Source of the DNA: Stratiformator vulcanicus
GTDB taxonomy: Bacteria; Planctomycetota; Planctomycetia; Planctomycetales; Planctomycetaceae
Assembly: GCF_007744515.1 (NCBI RefSeq)
Contig: NZ_CP036268.1
Span: 2,271,712-2,335,711, forward strand
Length of the DNA: 64,000 nt
Direction: 5' to 3'
The position numbers and the translations under genes are program-made. The first letter of the stretch is position 1; each line of letters begins with the position of its first letter. Under the pieces are notes generated by a model. The model was given only the letters and a program-made list of their open reading frames with translations, was not told the DNA's origin and did no database searches. Below are positions 11,561 through 18,337 of this stretch, in pieces.

Positions 11561-12136
11561 AGGCCGGTCTCCTTACCAACTCAGGTCGAAAAAAGTGGGT
11601 CTCTCCAGACTACGAGCGAGATTTCGAAAGACGCACGCCGAGGGCGCGAACATTGGAGGCAGCGTTCCGGCAAGCGAAGCCGGAGCGAAGGCCGAGATCG
11701 GCCACACCAGCGATTGTCGAATGAGATCGGTCAAATCGCATGTCCCGCCTCCTTGCGGGGATTCGCGGCATCGCCGCGTGTCCGTCGAAATCGGTCCGGC
11801 CACACAGGCCTGACTCGTCAGTTGCCGATCACAAGGCTGAATCTTTCAATCCGAGTGATCGTCAATGGCAAACGCCATCCGAACGGGCGAGGATGCTACC
11901 CGAGAATTCGGCGAGCGCCACAACATTTTCTCCTGAGCGATCCATTTTTTACATATCCAACTTGGCTGATCTATCTCGCGCGGCCGGACTAAGTTCTTGA
12001 CGGTTTCTGAACATCAAGCGGGGCAACGCCTTCCGCCCGCTACTCGATCAGGCGTTCGTTGCGGCGGTACCCTGCGGTGATATACTCAGAAGGTGCGGCG
12101 AAAGACTCTTTCAACCGGGAATTGGAGCGGGAATCG
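11561..12136. other. intergenic region between divergent sigma factor and citrate synthase genes
   Basis: This stretch of about 575 bases holds no convincing gene. It contains three small dyads: TCCGGC/GCCGGA around 11665-11683, CCCGC/GCGGG around 11744-11759, and CGCGGC/GCCGCG at 11764-11778. It also holds the likely citrate synthase promoter near its right end. The promoter of the sigma gene should lie near the left end, but I could not assign one with confidence. Confidence 0.5.
12059..12086 (+). promoter_or_regulatory. candidate sigma-70 promoter of citrate synthase
   Basis: An extended -10 element (TG-A-TATACT, hexamer at 12081-12086) lies 51 bases before the chosen start codon at 12137. 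A weak -35 (TTGCGG, 12059-12064) sits 16 bases upstream of the hexamer. The prediction is by eye only. Confidence 0.4.
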
Positions 12137-13282
12137 ATGAGTGCGGAAGCGGGTAAAGACCAAGCAGTCGTCGCGAAAGGGCTCAAAGGCATCATGGCGG
12201 CCGACAGTTCCATCTGTCTGGTCGACGGCCAGCAGGGGAAGCTGCTGTATCGCGGCTACAACATCGACGACCTCGCCGAGAAGAGCAGCTATGAAGAGGT
12301 CGCCTATTTATTGATGAAGGGCGAACTCCCGGACGCCGTTCAGCTCGATAAGTTCGATGATCCGCTTTCAAAAGATGCGAAGCTTCTCCCCGAAGTGATG
12401 GCGTTTCTGAAGAACTCTCCGCTCGACGTCCCGCCGATGTCGCTGTTGCGCAGCGCGACGTCGGTCGCGGGGCTTTACGATCCGACGGCGGAAGATAATT
12501 CGGTCGACGGAGCGTACTCGAAAGCGATTCGCCTCATCGCGAAACTTCCCACGATGGTGGCCGCGATCCATCGCTTGCGCGAAGGCAAAGAACCGATCGA
12601 TCCGGTCGCCGACAAGAGCGTCGCTTGGAACTTCGTGCATATGCTCAAGGGAGACGAGCCGACCGGCGATGAAGTGAAGGCCGCCGATCTGATCCTCATT
12701 TTGCACGCCGAGCACGGCTTCAATGCCAGCACGTTCTCGTCCCGCGTCACGATCGCGACCTTGACCGACTTCTACTCGGCAATTACCGCCGCTATCGGCA
12801 CGCTTAAAGGGAAACTGCACGGCGGAGCCAATACCGCGGTGCTCGAAACGCTGATGGACATCGGCAGTGTCGAAGCGGTCGAACCCTACGTGGAGAAAGG
12901 ACTCGCGGCCAAAGAGAAATTTATGGGCTTTGGTCACGCGGTCTATCAGGTAGAAGACCCGCGGGCCAAGCATCTGAAGGCACTCAGCAAACGTCTCGGC
13001 GAAGAGCAGGGCAATACCAAATGGTATGACATGTCGGTGAAGATGGAGGAACTCGTCACGCCGGCCATCAAGAAAAATTGCAACGTCGACTTCTATTCCG
13101 CCAGCGTTCAACACTACCTCGGCATCCCCAAGGATCTCTTCACCTGCATCTTTGCGATGAGTCGCATCGCTGGCTGGAGCGCCCACGTGCTCGAACAGCT
13201 CTCCGACAACAAAATTATCCGCCCGAAGGCGCACTACGTCGGAGCGGAAGAGCGAAAGTATGTGTCAATTGGCGAGCGGTAG
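12137..13282 (+). CDS. gltA: citrate synthase
   Basis: A protein of 381 residues that condenses acetyl-CoA and oxaloacetate to citrate at the entry of the TCA cycle. The N-terminal lead DSSICLVDGQQGKLLYRGY is typical. Catalytic regions are KLHGGANTAVLE (first His), MGFGHAVYQVEDPRA (second His) and NVDFYSA (Asp). The residue after the second His is Ala, where many enzymes have Arg (GHRVY). The start at 12137 was chosen over an in-frame upstream start at 12059 because the candidate promoter lies inside the longer version and a GGAG precedes 12137. 2-Methylcitrate synthase is an alternative within the same family. Confidence 0.92.
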   Translation: MSAEAGKDQAVVAKGLKGIMAADSSICLVDGQQGKLLYRGYNIDDLAEKSSYEEVAYLLMKGELPDAVQLDKFDDPLSKDAKLLPEVMAFLKNSPLDVPPMSLLRSATSVAGLYDPTAEDNSVDGAYSKAIRLIAKLPTMVAAIHRLREGKEPIDPVADKSVAWNFVHMLKGDEPTGDEVKAADLILILHAEHGFNASTFSSRVTIATLTDFYSAITAAIGTLKGKLHGGANTAVLETLMDIGSVEAVEPYVEKGLAAKEKFMGFGHAVYQVEDPRAKHLKALSKRLGEEQGNTKWYDMSVKMEELVTPAIKKNCNVDFYSASVQHYLGIPKDLFTCIFAMSRIAGWSAHVLEQLSDNKIIRPKAHYVGAEERKYVSIGER

Positions 13283-13285
13283 GCT

Positions 13286-13699
13286 GTGGCGGAGAATTCA
13301 CGAAATGTGCGACTGTACCGGGGATTGGCAGTGCGTCGCCGCGAGGACGCGGATGTTCTCGTTGCGGCGGAACGGTACAGCGGAGCAATCTATCTGGGTG
13401 GATATGTCGCCGAATGTGTTCTGAAAGCTTTGATTTTGCGGCATACCGCAGCCGGCCAAGAGACGCAGGCGTTGAATGAAGTCAAATCGATCGGACACAA
13501 TCTGGAACGGCTGAAGACGCGGGCGATAGAGACGGGCTCCGTACATTTTCCTGCGGAAGTCATACGCGCTCTCAACTCACTCAATTATTGGTCCTCCGAA
13601 CTTCGCTACGACTTAAAGACTCCGGGCAGAAAAGATGTCTCTGCATTCTTTCGGGCTCTGAAAGTCATTGGTGAATGGTCCGAACGAGTCAGTTGGTGA
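13286..13699 (+). CDS. HEPN domain protein
   Basis: A helical protein of 137 residues with the HEPN pattern RREDADVLVAAERYSGAIY, then GGYVAECVLKALILRH, then GHNLERLK. HEPN proteins are often RNases in toxin-antitoxin or defence systems, or non-catalytic nucleotide-binding partners. The canonical R-x4-6-H RNase motif is not evident here, so catalysis is doubtful. It starts with GTG three bases after the citrate synthase stop, suggesting co-transcription, and is followed 24 bases later by a small unknown gene. The family call is from pattern only; the biological role is unknown. Confidence 0.65.
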   Translation: MAENSRNVRLYRGLAVRRREDADVLVAAERYSGAIYLGGYVAECVLKALILRHTAAGQETQALNEVKSIGHNLERLKTRAIETGSVHFPAEVIRALNSLNYWSSELRYDLKTPGRKDVSAFFRALKVIGEWSERVSW

Positions 13700-13723
13700 T
13701 GTTTGTTTTCGAAAGGTCATCAG

Positions 13724-14038
13724 ATGCCGGTAATTGAACGCGCGGAAAATAGGGGCGTGGCCGCAGATGCCATCGACAATGCCCTCACACTGCGATTTGG
13801 CTCAAATGTTGAAGTTCGCGAACGCCATCCGCTTTCTCTATGGATCAGGGTGCAGTCGGAAGAGTTTTCATCGCTTGATCGCGAAGGGCGTGAGGATTTA
13901 TTCTGGGCAGCCCTCGAGAGCGTCGATTCTGAAATGGTCCAAACGATCTCTTCGACCCGACTCAAGGCCCCAGGAGAAGAGACGAGTTTTAGCGACTATA
14001 TTTTTGACAATCCGCCTTCGTCAGAAACTTTGAATTAA
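13724..14038 (+). CDS. small protein, possibly BolA-like, paired with HEPN gene
   Basis: A protein of 104 residues. The ATG at 13724 has AAAGGT about seven bases upstream and was preferred to a TTG at 13703. The sequence has an alpha-beta look: an N-terminal helix, a strand pair around VEVRERHPLSLWIRV, a segment EEFSSLDREGREDLFWAAL, and an ending VQTISSTRLKAPGEE. The order (helix, strands, S-x-x-F, charged R-rich helix, strand, P-x-E) recalls BolA-family proteins, but this is my inference from pattern without an alignment. The close pairing with the HEPN gene suggests a two-gene unit. Confidence 0.5.
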   Translation: MPVIERAENRGVAADAIDNALTLRFGSNVEVRERHPLSLWIRVQSEEFSSLDREGREDLFWAALESVDSEMVQTISSTRLKAPGEETSFSDYIFDNPPSSETLN

Positions 14039-14061: not shown

Positions 14062-15507
14062 ATGTCATTTAAATTCGTCCCACCCGGTTCGAACCTGAAA
14101 GTAGCGGCTTTGGCGCTTAGAAAGCGATTGACGCAGTCCAGCGTTTTCGCCGTTGCTTTAATTGCTTTCCTTGAAGTGCCGCTGACGGCAGCCGATCGCC
14201 CGAATGTCCTGTTCATCGCGATCGATGACCTCAACGATTGGGTTGGGCCGCTGAAGGGGCATCCGGACGTTAAGACGCCGAACATCGATCGGCTGGCCAA
14301 ACGCGGCGTGACGTTCACCGACGCTCACTGCCAGTTTCCGCTGTGTGGTCCGTCGCGGGCGAGTCTGATGTCGGGGATGCATCCCGACACGCTCGAAGTT
14401 TTTTGGCATCAAGGCGGCAAGCCGGAGAACCTGATGCCTCGGGTTGCTGAACTCGGCGGGGTGCTGCTCGATCAGCATTTTCGCAACAACGGCTACGCGG
14501 TCTTCAGCCGCGGGAAGATCTATCACTCCGGGCATCCGAATGCCAAAAAGTACTTCGACGAGTGGGGCGGCCACGCCGGGTTCGGGCCGAAGCCGAAGCG
14601 GAAGTTCGCCTGGGACAGCGATTTTACGCAGACCGACTGGGGCGTCTTTCCCGATGACGTCACGCGGATGCCCGACTATCAGACCGCCGAGTTCGGCGTT
14701 CGCAAACTGGGCGAGGCTCGCGACAAACCGTTCCTGCTGATGGTCGGTTTCGTCCGCCCTCACGTGCCTTGGTACACGCCCCAAAAGTGGTTCGACCGAT
14801 TCGATCCCGACGCGCTACAGATGCCGCCATATCGGAGCGACGATCTGGATGACCTGCCGCCGATGTCATCGGAGATCAATCGAATGCCCGGGTCACCCAC
14901 GACCGAGTGGGCGAAGGAATCGGGTGAGTGGAAGCAGATCGTGCGGGCCTATCTCGCCTGTGTGAATTTCGTCGATGAGCAGGTCGGTAAGGTGCTCGAT
15001 GCCCTCGATGAGAGCGACTACGCGGACGAGACGATCGTGGTGCTGTGGTCCGATCATGGCTACCACATCGGCGAAAAAAATCGCTTTCAAAAGCATTCGC
15101 TGTGGGAACGCTCGACCCACGTGCCGGTGATCCTGGCTGGGCCGGGCATTCCGCAAGATGATAAGTGTGATCAGGTCGTGGGGCTGATCGACATTGCTCC
15201 GACGCTTGCCGATCTTTGCGACCTTCCGCCGAACAAACGCTGGGAAGGCCGCAGCCTGGCGCCGCTGCTACGCGGCTCGAATCCGAAATGGGATCGCGGC
15301 GTCTTGACGACCTGGAAGGAAGGCAATCACGCCGTGACGACCGAACGATACCGTCTGCTGCGATACCACGACGGAACCAAGGAACTTTACGATCGCGAGG
15401 CCGATCCGAATGAGTGGGTGAACCTCGCGGAGCGTTCCGAGTCCAAAGAGGTGATCGTCGAACTTGGCCGCCGCATGGATTCGCTACTGGGTCGCACACG
15501 CGAGTAA
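14062..15507 (+). CDS. exported sulfatase (iduronate-2-sulfatase-like)
   Basis: A protein of 481 residues with an N-terminal signal region (hydrophobic about 28-44, ending near TAADR). The metal-binding start is NVLFIAIDDLNDW. The formylglycine motif is C-x-P-S-R, with Cys95 in CGPSRASLMSG. A second metal region is VVLWSDHGYHIGEKN. A type I sulfatase hydrolyses sulfate esters after the cysteine is converted to formylglycine; a candidate maturation enzyme is encoded at 17105. The closing LYDREADPNEWVNLA is common in this subgroup. AAGG lies seven bases before the ATG. The substrate is probably a sulfated polysaccharide, not determinable here. Confidence 0.9.
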   Translation: MSFKFVPPGSNLKVAALALRKRLTQSSVFAVALIAFLEVPLTAADRPNVLFIAIDDLNDWVGPLKGHPDVKTPNIDRLAKRGVTFTDAHCQFPLCGPSRASLMSGMHPDTLEVFWHQGGKPENLMPRVAELGGVLLDQHFRNNGYAVFSRGKIYHSGHPNAKKYFDEWGGHAGFGPKPKRKFAWDSDFTQTDWGVFPDDVTRMPDYQTAEFGVRKLGEARDKPFLLMVGFVRPHVPWYTPQKWFDRFDPDALQMPPYRSDDLDDLPPMSSEINRMPGSPTTEWAKESGEWKQIVRAYLACVNFVDEQVGKVLDALDESDYADETIVVLWSDHGYHIGEKNRFQKHSLWERSTHVPVILAGPGIPQDDKCDQVVGLIDIAPTLADLCDLPPNKRWEGRSLAPLLRGSNPKWDRGVLTTWKEGNHAVTTERYRLLRYHDGTKELYDREADPNEWVNLAERSESKEVIVELGRRMDSLLGRTRE

Positions 15508-15633: not shown

Positions 15634-15981
15634 ATGGCCAAGTGCGACGAGGGTTATCTCTGCGAAGTGTGCGGCGAGCCGGTGAAGGCGATCGTTGAGA
15701 GCGATCTCTATCTGCGGTACGTCATCGGCGAGATCGATGTCGCCGAGCTTGCGGCCTCGCCCGAGCGGCATCAGCGGTGCAATCCGACGATGGCCCAGTT
15801 CATTGTCGACGAGAAGTTCGAGCCGGTCACGGTCGAAGGACCGTTCTCGAAGGCGGAGCTTGACCGGGACGACGTCAAAGCGCGAGAGGAACTGGTAACC
15901 CGCGGCTGGCGGCGACTGCGGGAGGTCCGAAAGCTCGGATTGCCGATCAGCGATTATCCGCTGGAATCAGCGGCGCGGTAG
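15634..15981 (+). CDS. conserved small CxxC protein of unknown function
   Basis: A cytoplasmic-looking protein of 115 residues with a CEVCGE knuckle near the N-terminus and a further Cys in HQRCNP at about residue 49, so a small metal site is possible. The C-terminal half is rich in Arg and Glu. No domain name could be assigned. It lies about 125 bases after the sulfatase on the same strand, and its 3' end is followed by an inverted-repeat element. Confidence 0.6.
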   Translation: MAKCDEGYLCEVCGEPVKAIVESDLYLRYVIGEIDVAELAASPERHQRCNPTMAQFIVDEKFEPVTVEGPFSKAELDRDDVKAREELVTRGWRRLREVRKLGLPISDYPLESAAR

Positions 15982-17104: not shown

Positions 17105-18337
17105 ATGAAAATTAGCATTATCGCGCCGCTGGTCTTGCTCGCGCTGGCGGCTGTTTCTTTGGCAACCGTCGCGGTGTTGCCGACCGACGGCCCCGCCCGT
17201 TCGACGCCGGTCCCTCCGGAGGCGGGGGGCGACGCATCGACGACTTCGGACGCCAAGCTGAGCCAGCGAGCGACTCGTGAGCCAATCACCGAGGCTCCGG
17301 CGGCCGATCCCGACGGGATGGTTTGGATTCCGGGCGGCAGCTTCGAAATGGGAAATCCCGAACCGGGCGACACCCAAAAGGATGAAATTCCGGTTCATGC
17401 CGTCACGCTCGACGGATTTTGGATGGATGCGACCGAGGTGACCAACGCCGAGTTCTCCCGGTTCGTGGAAGCGACCGGCTACAAGACCATCGCTGAAACG
17501 AAGCCGAAGCGGGAAGACTTCGCGGGGCAGATTCCCGACATTTCGACGATCCCGGAAGAGAATCTGGTCGCCGGTTCGATTTGCTTCAACTCAGAATTTG
17601 ACCCTTCGACGATCGACAAGTCGCAGCCGTTATGGCCGTACGCCATTTGGCAACACGTCGAAGGAGCGAGTTGGCGAGAACCTGAAGGGCCGGGTTCCTC
17701 GATCGACGACCGCATGGACCATCCGGTCGTGCATGTGGCCTACGAGGACGCGGTGGCTTACTGCGAATGGGCGGGCAAACGATTGCCGACCGAGGCCGAG
17801 TGGGAATATGCCGCCCGCGGGGGGCTTGATGACGTCGCCTATCCGTGGGGGGACGAGCGAAACCCGGACGGGCAATGGAAGCACAATATCTGGCAGGGTG
17901 AGTTTCCTTATGAAAACAAGGTCGAAGACGGCTATCGGACGAGCGCTCCGGTCAAAAGTTTTGAGCCCAACGCCTACGGCCTTTACGACATGTCCGGCAA
18001 CGTTTGGGAATGGTGCCGCGACTGGTATCGCCCCGACTACTATCAGCGGAGCCCGATTTGGAACCCGTTCGGACCGGCCGCGAGCTTCGACCCGCAGGAA
18101 CCGATGATCCCCAAACGTGTCCAGCGCGGGGGTTCATTCATGTGCAGCGACAACTACTGTATTGGATACCGCGTTACCGCCCGGATGAAGGGCGATCCGA
18201 TGACCGGCACCTTCCACTGCGGGTTCCGCTGCGTTTTGCCGGCCGACGGAGCCGAGCCGGACCGGACGGCGGTGTCCGAAAATGAGCCGGATGCCGCAGG
18301 TCGACTTGCCGACGTCTCAGGCGATTCACGTTCATGA
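17105..18337 (+). CDS. formylglycine-generating enzyme (sulfatase-modifying factor family)
   Basis: A protein of 410 residues with an N-terminal membrane anchor or signal (about 4-24). The FGE-sulfatase domain runs from MVWIPGGSFEMGNPEPG to GFRCVLPADG. The C-terminal part has the two active-site cysteines five residues apart, Cys347 and Cys352 in GGSFMCSDNYC, matching the copper-binding pair of authentic aerobic FGE; many family members lack them. It should oxidise the sulfatase active-site Cys to formylglycine, and two C-x-P-S/T-R sulfatases are encoded nearby (14062 and 35735). Its four-base overlap with the next gene implies coupling. Confidence 0.9.
   Translation: MKISIIAPLVLLALAAVSLATVAVLPTDGPARSTPVPPEAGGDASTTSDAKLSQRATREPITEAPAADPDGMVWIPGGSFEMGNPEPGDTQKDEIPVHAVTLDGFWMDATEVTNAEFSRFVEATGYKTIAETKPKREDFAGQIPDISTIPEENLVAGSICFNSEFDPSTIDKSQPLWPYAIWQHVEGASWREPEGPGSSIDDRMDHPVVHVAYEDAVAYCEWAGKRLPTEAEWEYAARGGLDDVAYPWGDERNPDGQWKHNIWQGEFPYENKVEDGYRTSAPVKSFEPNAYGLYDMSGNVWEWCRDWYRPDYYQRSPIWNPFGPAASFDPQEPMIPKRVQRGGSFMCSDNYCIGYRVTARMKGDPMTGTFHCGFRCVLPADGAEPDRTAVSENEPDAAGRLADVSGDSRS

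Follow-up and report, generated by a model that had tools for sequence, protein, structure and literature searches.

HEPN RNases are widespread among bacteria as toxins and as defence effectors. In the dyads that are known best, they are paired with nucleotidyltransferases or with ATPases of the ParA type (PMC3710099, a census of HEPN proteins cited here and below for the part of its text that was available), and the HEPN-MNT and HEPN-ParA dyads are the precedents for the unit described here (PMC3710099, PMC7641770, the latter also available in part). The MNT gene lies before the HEPN gene in the known dyad, and in toxin-antitoxin dyads the antitoxin gene usually comes first (PMC3710099). In the HEPN-ParA precedent, a HEPN protein of the MAE_18760 family, which has the Rx4-6H motif, is encoded beside a ParA/Soj gene (PMC3710099). 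A third point of comparison is PDC-M28, a PADLOC candidate in which component A is a HEPN protein, B is ParA-like and C is AAA/ORC-like; PADLOC's PDC systems are unvalidated candidates (PMC12988326, in the part available). PDC-M28 was not found by name in the open-licence PMC literature, and the available parts of PMC12839542 and PMC8195603 hold no HEPN + ParA + CDC6 system.

The window, the whole 64,000-nucleotide stretch of Stratiformator vulcanicus (Planctomycetota) DNA analysed here, contains two small adjacent genes directly downstream of the citrate synthase gene gltA, all on the + strand. gltA (12059..13282; PF00285, E 3.5e-128) has its mechanical ORF start at 12059, with an ATG at 12137 as the likely start, and its TAG stop (13280-13282) is separated by 3 bases from the GTG start at 13286 of a gene for a HEPN-domain protein of 137 amino acids (13286..13699), a predicted RNase or effector according to Pfam, PADLOC, AlphaFold2, VIA-align and residue conservation. 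The second gene (13724..14038) encodes a 104-residue protein of predicted BolA fold (PDB profile, AlphaFold2, Foldseek, VIA-align and histidine columns) that is a predicted HEPN inhibitor or adaptor; its ATG at 13724 lies 24 bases past the end of the HEPN gene (13699), and the mechanical ORF could begin at TTG 13703. The earlier note had described a HEPN gene 3 bases behind gltA followed by a 104-residue gene, and its coordinates are correct. From the 3-base gap we infer that the pair may be placed in a common housekeeping transcript with gltA. The downstream neighbour, a sulfatase gene (14062..15507, +; PF00884, E 3.8e-45), is not considered part of the unit. The GC content of the pair (0.519) is in the lowest 1.1% of 753-base positions in the window (window mean 0.587), and its GC3 is 0.51-0.54 compared with 0.72-0.74 in gltA, the sulfatase gene and the gene at 17105. 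A 115-residue protein without a Pfam match, starting MAKCDEGYLCEVC, is encoded near the pair in the window (15634-15981), and the same type of protein is found directly behind the pair in another locus (L021:4047-4397; L and G numbers are our handles for loci and genomes).

The pair resembles HEPN-MNT (HepT-MntA, type VII toxin-antitoxin) in consisting of two small adjacent genes, one of them HEPN, and in a HEPN fold that aligns with 6m6u. However, its partner has a predicted BolA fold and is not a nucleotidyltransferase, the HEPN gene comes first, and the HEPN protein has no canonical Rx4-6H; PF18765 (Polbeta) has no match in the S. vulcanicus genome. Many relatives of the window HEPN are encoded beside a ParA-type gene as in the HEPN + ParA/Soj dyad (PMC3710099), whereas the window pair has no ParA gene, and the window family does not show the Rx4-6H listed for the MAE_18760 family. 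The window HEPN matches component A of PDC-M28 (PADLOC, E 1.4e-10), and PADLOC lists its family as a phage-defence candidate, but B and C are missing in the window and the pair falls outside that system. The window unit is thus without the partner that defines each of HEPN-MNT, HEPN-ParA and PDC-M28. The small protein is like BolA and IbaG (YrbA; PF01722) in predicted fold and profile similarity, although it stays below the Pfam cut-off and has lost the canonical histidines. No description of a HEPN-BolA pair was found in the open-licence PMC literature, as far as its texts were available; there is no BolA antitoxin among the matches listed from that literature, and BolA has 0 occurrences in the main text of the HEPN census in its available part (PMC3710099). 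As far as the literature found shows, the window unit, judged by its gene content, appears to be a previously undescribed variant of HEPN two-gene modules.

The HEPN protein scores above the cut-off for PF05168 (25.4 bits versus 22, E 1.7e-5). HEPN profiles matched no PDB sequence, and the assignment therefore rests on Pfam and on the fold. Its AlphaFold2 model (pLDDT 94.2) has the HEPN helical fold, aligning by VIA-align to 1ufb with Z 15.2 (119 aligned, rmsd 2.0), to sacsin HEPN with Z 14.2, to 2hsb (AF0298) with Z 14.0 and to MntA-HepT 6m6u with Z 9.8 (112 aligned, rmsd 3.4). VIA-align was clearer than Foldseek, which gave no match below 0.001 for this model (best E 0.004, 1wol). The earlier note had found no clear RNase motif. 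This stands for Rx4-6H, which is absent from the window protein and from 26 of 28 aligned HEPN proteins (23 from BolA-like pairs and 5 from other partner classes), the remaining 2 having an H at that spacing; it does not stand for an alternative set of residues, E43, K47, H71 and R107, which together with Y36, G39, C44 and W102 are invariant in 28 of 28. In AF0298-like HEPN-T and AbiV proteins the motif H is typically missing with the basic residue present, and a second, more N-terminal conserved H could form an alternative active site; the census also puts a conserved acidic residue of helix 2 beside the motif (PMC3710099). The window HEPN is like these proteins in its kept R, missing motif H and upstream conserved H; the partner genes differ, however, and AbiV aligns more weakly (9bj6, Z 7.6). 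By analogy, the window HEPN probably has an active site of alternative arrangement, built from the motif R and the upstream invariant H, and the fit of its family to the AF0298/AbiV description makes RNase activity plausible.

The 104-residue protein had been noted to have a layout resembling BolA, and profiles of its relatives, an AlphaFold2 model, Foldseek and VIA-align all give BolA. Taken alone, the window protein has no match to BolA (PF01722), no credible Pfam match of any kind and none in NCBIfam or PADLOC. PF01722 matches 4 of 10 relatives weakly (best E 0.035, below cut-off), and none of 21 genomes, S. vulcanicus included, has a PF01722 match above the cut-off; weak matches occur in 7 of the 21, and at least two of them (L097, L098) are HEPN partners. 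Single relatives gave weak PADLOC matches (JetB 0.0033, Mem_02 0.005, PglZ 0.0075), which we discounted as isolated cases. A profile of ten partners matched 16 PDB sequences, all of the BolA family (best 3e-5), and with 27 partners 18 of 20 matches were BolA (best 9e-6), the other two being SLD5 at 0.49; the matched chains include 1xs3, 5zb6 and 2n8q, which we take to be BolA. The model (pLDDT 84.8) was built from 36 HEPN-associated sequences and no canonical BolA, and its elements run in the order helix, strand, strand, helices, strand, helix. BolA proteins occupy Foldseek ranks 1-19, with a best E of 4.5e-4 and only two matches below 0.001, and the model aligns by VIA-align to the BolA structure 4pui with Z 9.3 (77 aligned, rmsd 2.0); 18 of the first 20 VIA-align rows are BolA, and the two remaining rows belong to a T. 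gondii mitoribosome protein. Structure prediction of both proteins, a check suggested in the earlier note, thus gave a HEPN fold and a fold not unlike BolA, and on the combined evidence of profiles and model the small protein is predicted to have the BolA fold.

The histidines of BolA bind metal or Fe–S. All 10 canonical BolA proteins compared (10 of the 11 found by the partner profile, L121 being left out as very like L118) carry each of the three, against 1, 2 and 1 of 27 HEPN partners; the window protein has none of them. A small tree places the ten canonical BolA proteins together (support 0.85), the branches around them being weakly resolved.

The pair recurs within the phylum. A first scan of 294 Planctomycetota genomes found HEPN relatives in 13, S. 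vulcanicus included, and in 10 of these a BolA-like ORF on the HEPN strand follows directly 3'. In the remaining three, a 190-residue protein (L012) or another protein (L015) is present instead, or the HEPN itself is interrupted (L013). When the same 294 genomes were searched with profiles, HEPN was matched 20 times, in 16 genomes, and the partner 29 times, in 25 genomes. Directly 3' of the HEPN matches are 14 BolA-like partners, 2 of a class of about 130 residues (one a fragment), 1 of ParA type and 3 that are none of these; because the profiles contain many of the sequences counted, such counts are classifications more than independent tests. Independent are the exclusive position of the strong partner hits behind HEPN genes (each of the 11 with E<1e-13 immediately follows a HEPN match, 10 of them being rows of the profile used) and the finds outside the profile (G166:C40:25519, G166:C330 and G277). 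The other 18 partner hits consist of 2 HEPN partners, 11 canonical BolA proteins (matched to 1.1e-7), 3 MNT-like proteins, 1 apparent partner fragment and 1 unclear case, the canonical BolA (IHAL-type motif) and MNT-like hits being recognised by eye. A scan of relatives (21 genomes, S. vulcanicus included), likewise part of the independent evidence, gave 8 HEPN matches in 5 genomes, 7 with a BolA-like partner, five of which (in G298, G303 and G306) are in no profile, and 1 (G257) with a partner of the 130-residue class. HEPN and partner distances are correlated over the 22 of 27 partners for which both proteins are in the alignments (Mantel r 0.74, 1 in 10,000; null mean 0.00, sd 0.08), a result that fits co-evolution and shared descent alike. 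The survey of neighbourhoods upholds the suggestion of a distinct two-gene unit, and the two outcomes that the earlier note had named as refuting it, a fold unlike BolA and no recurrence of the pair, both came out the other way.

A wider scan, in which 84,980 species were represented by one genome apiece, yielded 106 confirmed stretches. The best 80 were taken as loci; some of them are near-copies of one another (L037/L038), and two (L034, L077) come from genomes that the phylum scan had covered as well. Among these best 80 loci, 21 have a small BolA-like partner, in Planctomycetota, Poribacteria, Myxococcota, KSB1, Verrucomicrobiaceae and unclassified bacteria. HEPN and partner genes range from 28 bases overlapping to 16 bases apart in 19 of the 21, and the HEPN is interrupted in the remaining 2. 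A further 26 loci, mostly cyanobacterial, encode a BolA-like domain and a ParA region in one ORF, of 869-902 residues in 23 of the 26, with the BolA-like domain N-terminal. The small proteins are homologous to these fused N-terminal domains (hhalign 96.4%, E 1.3e-9 and 95.5%, E 1.4e-8; reversed controls 0.2 and 0.1%), and 0 of 13 fused BolA-like domains have the BolA histidines. The other loci have a partner of about 130 residues (18 loci), a ParA-type partner without a detected BolA-like part (12) or another or no partner (3). When small, large and second large BolA-like alignments were compared with ParA-only N-termini and 130-residue partners, hhalign gave 0.2-3.3% (best E 0.013; reversed controls 0.1-0.3%), none of it convincing. 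Nine partner proteins were scanned with PADLOC: L046, L092, L079, L029 and L075 match PDC-M28B and PDC-M28C, L073, L095 and L050 match PDC-M28B only, and the 130-residue partner of L065 has no Pfam or PADLOC match. Judged by these sequence comparisons, the pair belongs to a larger set as one of its branches, and elsewhere in that set the same BolA-like domain heads large ParA-containing proteins. The genes of the 130-residue class, whose profile has no credible match in the PDB, have in all 18 loci a possible start that gives a 22-base overlap with the HEPN gene; these loci include L032, L040, L044, L058, L060, L062 and L065.

We propose that the pair is a toxin-inhibitor (conflict) module complete in itself, in which the BolA-like domain is the HEPN-binding inhibitor, and we consider this reading probable on balance. 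The HEPN protein would be an RNase with an alternative active site (E43/K47/H71/R107), able in its free state to arrest growth or the production of phage. A single short transcript would supply both proteins, and the BolA-fold protein would keep its partner inactive by binding to it. The HEPN protein would be set free when the BolA-fold protein is lost or senses a signal. In the larger relatives the BolA-like domain would tie HEPN to ATPases that could sense invaders. The module is supported by the two predicted folds, the recurrent adjacency of the genes, the paired divergence of their products, the domain shared with larger proteins and the fact that the BolA histidines have been lost. We infer for it RNase activity, toxicity, binding, inhibition and co-transcription.

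Several features of the distribution are consistent with the toxin-inhibitor module. It is patchy, with HEPN matches in 5 of 21 genomes, the neighbours vary by host and the GC content is low. The place of the small gene is taken by other partners in other HEPN relatives (130-residue in 18 and ParA-only in 12 of the best 80 loci), as expected of exchangeable antitoxins, and one pair (L052) lies between Fic and HsdM genes. Other observations speak against it: the HEPN gene comes first, the canonical Rx4-6H is absent, 6 of 20 HEPN matches have no BolA-like partner, 13 of the 14 pairs with a Pfam-identified neighbour lie beside ordinary metabolic or similar genes and not defence genes, and the position behind gltA, common to two genera, suggests stable residence. 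Among the queries tried, none of 32 pattern matches on viral contigs was confirmed as a phage match, and two HEPN queries (L010 and L017) had no match on plasmids. The HEPN-first order and the housekeeping neighbourhoods argue somewhat against a classical addiction module.

Because a BolA-like domain heads large ParA proteins in cyanobacteria and elsewhere, we favour reading it as the part of a wider system that docks on HEPN; the pair in the window would be the ATPase-free version of that system. We advance more tentatively, as possible and somewhat short of probable, the idea that the BolA fold is a dedicated HEPN-docking domain in a class of conflict systems ranging from the HEPN + BolA-like pair to HEPN with BolA-like-ParA-AAA/ORC ATPases, the 130-residue and ParA-only partners being perhaps further docking partners, undetectably diverged or analogous. 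BolA is known as a redox, Fe–S and transcription protein. If the proposal is true, BolA gains a role in conflict systems, a BolA-fold partner is a further kind of HEPN control, and a function is suggested for the N-terminal region of the BolA-like-ParA relatives of PDC-M28.

The main rival, which we regard as unlikely, is a signalling or defence sensor pair: free HEPN would be harmless, and the BolA-like (KH-like) domain, having captured a nucleic acid or another ligand, would hand this over to the HEPN RNase or activate the enzyme. BolA resembles class II KH domains, and KH-type structures appear in the fold lists of the small-protein model (the KH domain of S3 at Foldseek rank 28, KhpB/EloR at VIA-align row 48). 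The fusion of the BolA-like domain with a ParA region in 26 of the best 80 loci also suits a sensor, as does the listing of the HEPN family by PADLOC as a phage-defence candidate. The four BolA-like-ParA proteins scanned match PDC-M28C in their C-terminal half, and Pfam ORC-CDC6-like scores above its cut-off in two proteins (L046, L029) and weakly in L079 and L092, with no listing of it for L075; a ParA + ORC/CDC6-like build is that of sensing ATPases. However, the small version has no ATPase, and no ligand site stands out, because in the alignment of 27 partners E85 alone comes close to being invariant.

It is less likely still that the pair is a housekeeping regulator, with BolA working with Fe–S clusters and glutaredoxin or as a TCA-cycle transcription factor and HEPN as an accessory, a reading that takes its appeal from the neighbourhoods. 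The S. vulcanicus genome has a second, divergent HEPN + BolA-like pair (G000:C1:4630759-4632266, - strand; also L150:783-3008), in which sucC (recognised by eye) is followed by a 156-residue HEPN whose start overlaps the sucC stop and then by a 173-residue partner. This pair was missed by the first partner profile at E 0.01 and found once relatives from G166 were added; its partner is related to the G166 partners by phmmer (3.1e-7 against 30 sequences) and by profile (3.8e-5 in a six-frame locus scan). By eye, E, K, H and R appear to be kept in the second HEPN, with the corresponding C and W replaced. Of 18 other sucC loci read, 13 have a start motif that we take to be sucD-type close behind sucC; the S. 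vulcanicus genome has no such motif there, and the second pair is in that place. Both BolA-like pairs found in this genome (2 of 2) thus lie behind TCA genes, gltA and sucC, which is too few cases to build on.

The order gltA-HEPN-BolA-like also occurs in a different genus (G298), in 2 of 20 gltA loci read, with identities to the window of 40% for HEPN, 41% over 59 residues for the partner and 67% for gltA, so that the gltA position is kept in two genera. A distant pair (L053) lies behind an Fe–S assembly gene. Other pairs, however, adjoin asd and/or lysA (L008, L009/L077 and L094; by Pfam for L009 and L094, by eye for L008) or guaA, guaB, purD, gltX, ahcY, etfA and glycan phosphorylase genes (names inferred from Pfam). 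Neighbours were chosen by a longest-ORF rule covering part of the pairs; among the 14 pairs with a Pfam-identified neighbour, the window included, that between Fic and HsdM is the one exception to metabolic, tRNA-synthetase, transferase, flavoprotein or Fe–S assembly genes. The rarity of the BolA histidines in HEPN partners and the 16 of 21 relatives without a HEPN match of this kind also argue against a housekeeping role.

A degenerate HEPN-MNT, in which the small gene would be a minimal nucleotidyltransferase without its catalytic half that merely resembles BolA, is very improbable. The partner profile weakly matches L125, L126 and L128, MNT by eye (E 0.004-0.009), and L125 adjoins a HEPN hit. 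The same profile nevertheless matches canonical BolA better, its PDB sequence matches are BolA in 18 of 20 cases and MNT in none, the model and its leading Foldseek ranks are BolA, and the gene order is the reverse of MNT-HEPN (PMC3710099). The VIA-align list for the BolA-like model contains no MNT, an absence that proves nothing. The weak L125, L126 and L128 matches to MNT-like nucleotidyltransferases may be due to chance or to a shared local layout. That two unrelated small genes lie behind gltA as chance neighbours has next to no probability and is refuted by the way the pair recurs across many genera and several phyla, with a single gene order and correlated divergence.

Some variants of the arrangement were seen in single loci. 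A tandem HEPN-BolA-HEPN-BolA is present in G166:C40 (L148/L151), one HEPN having an in-frame stop, and in L020:3396-4075 two consecutive BolA-like ORFs lie behind a single HEPN. BolA-like partners with a C-terminal extension of about 100 residues occur in L021:3414-4040 (209 residues) and in G298 (L153/L196, about 200 residues). A short piece like the partner C-terminal end, standing where there is no whole gene (L130; G266:C1:173752-173853), is perhaps the remnant of a lost pair.
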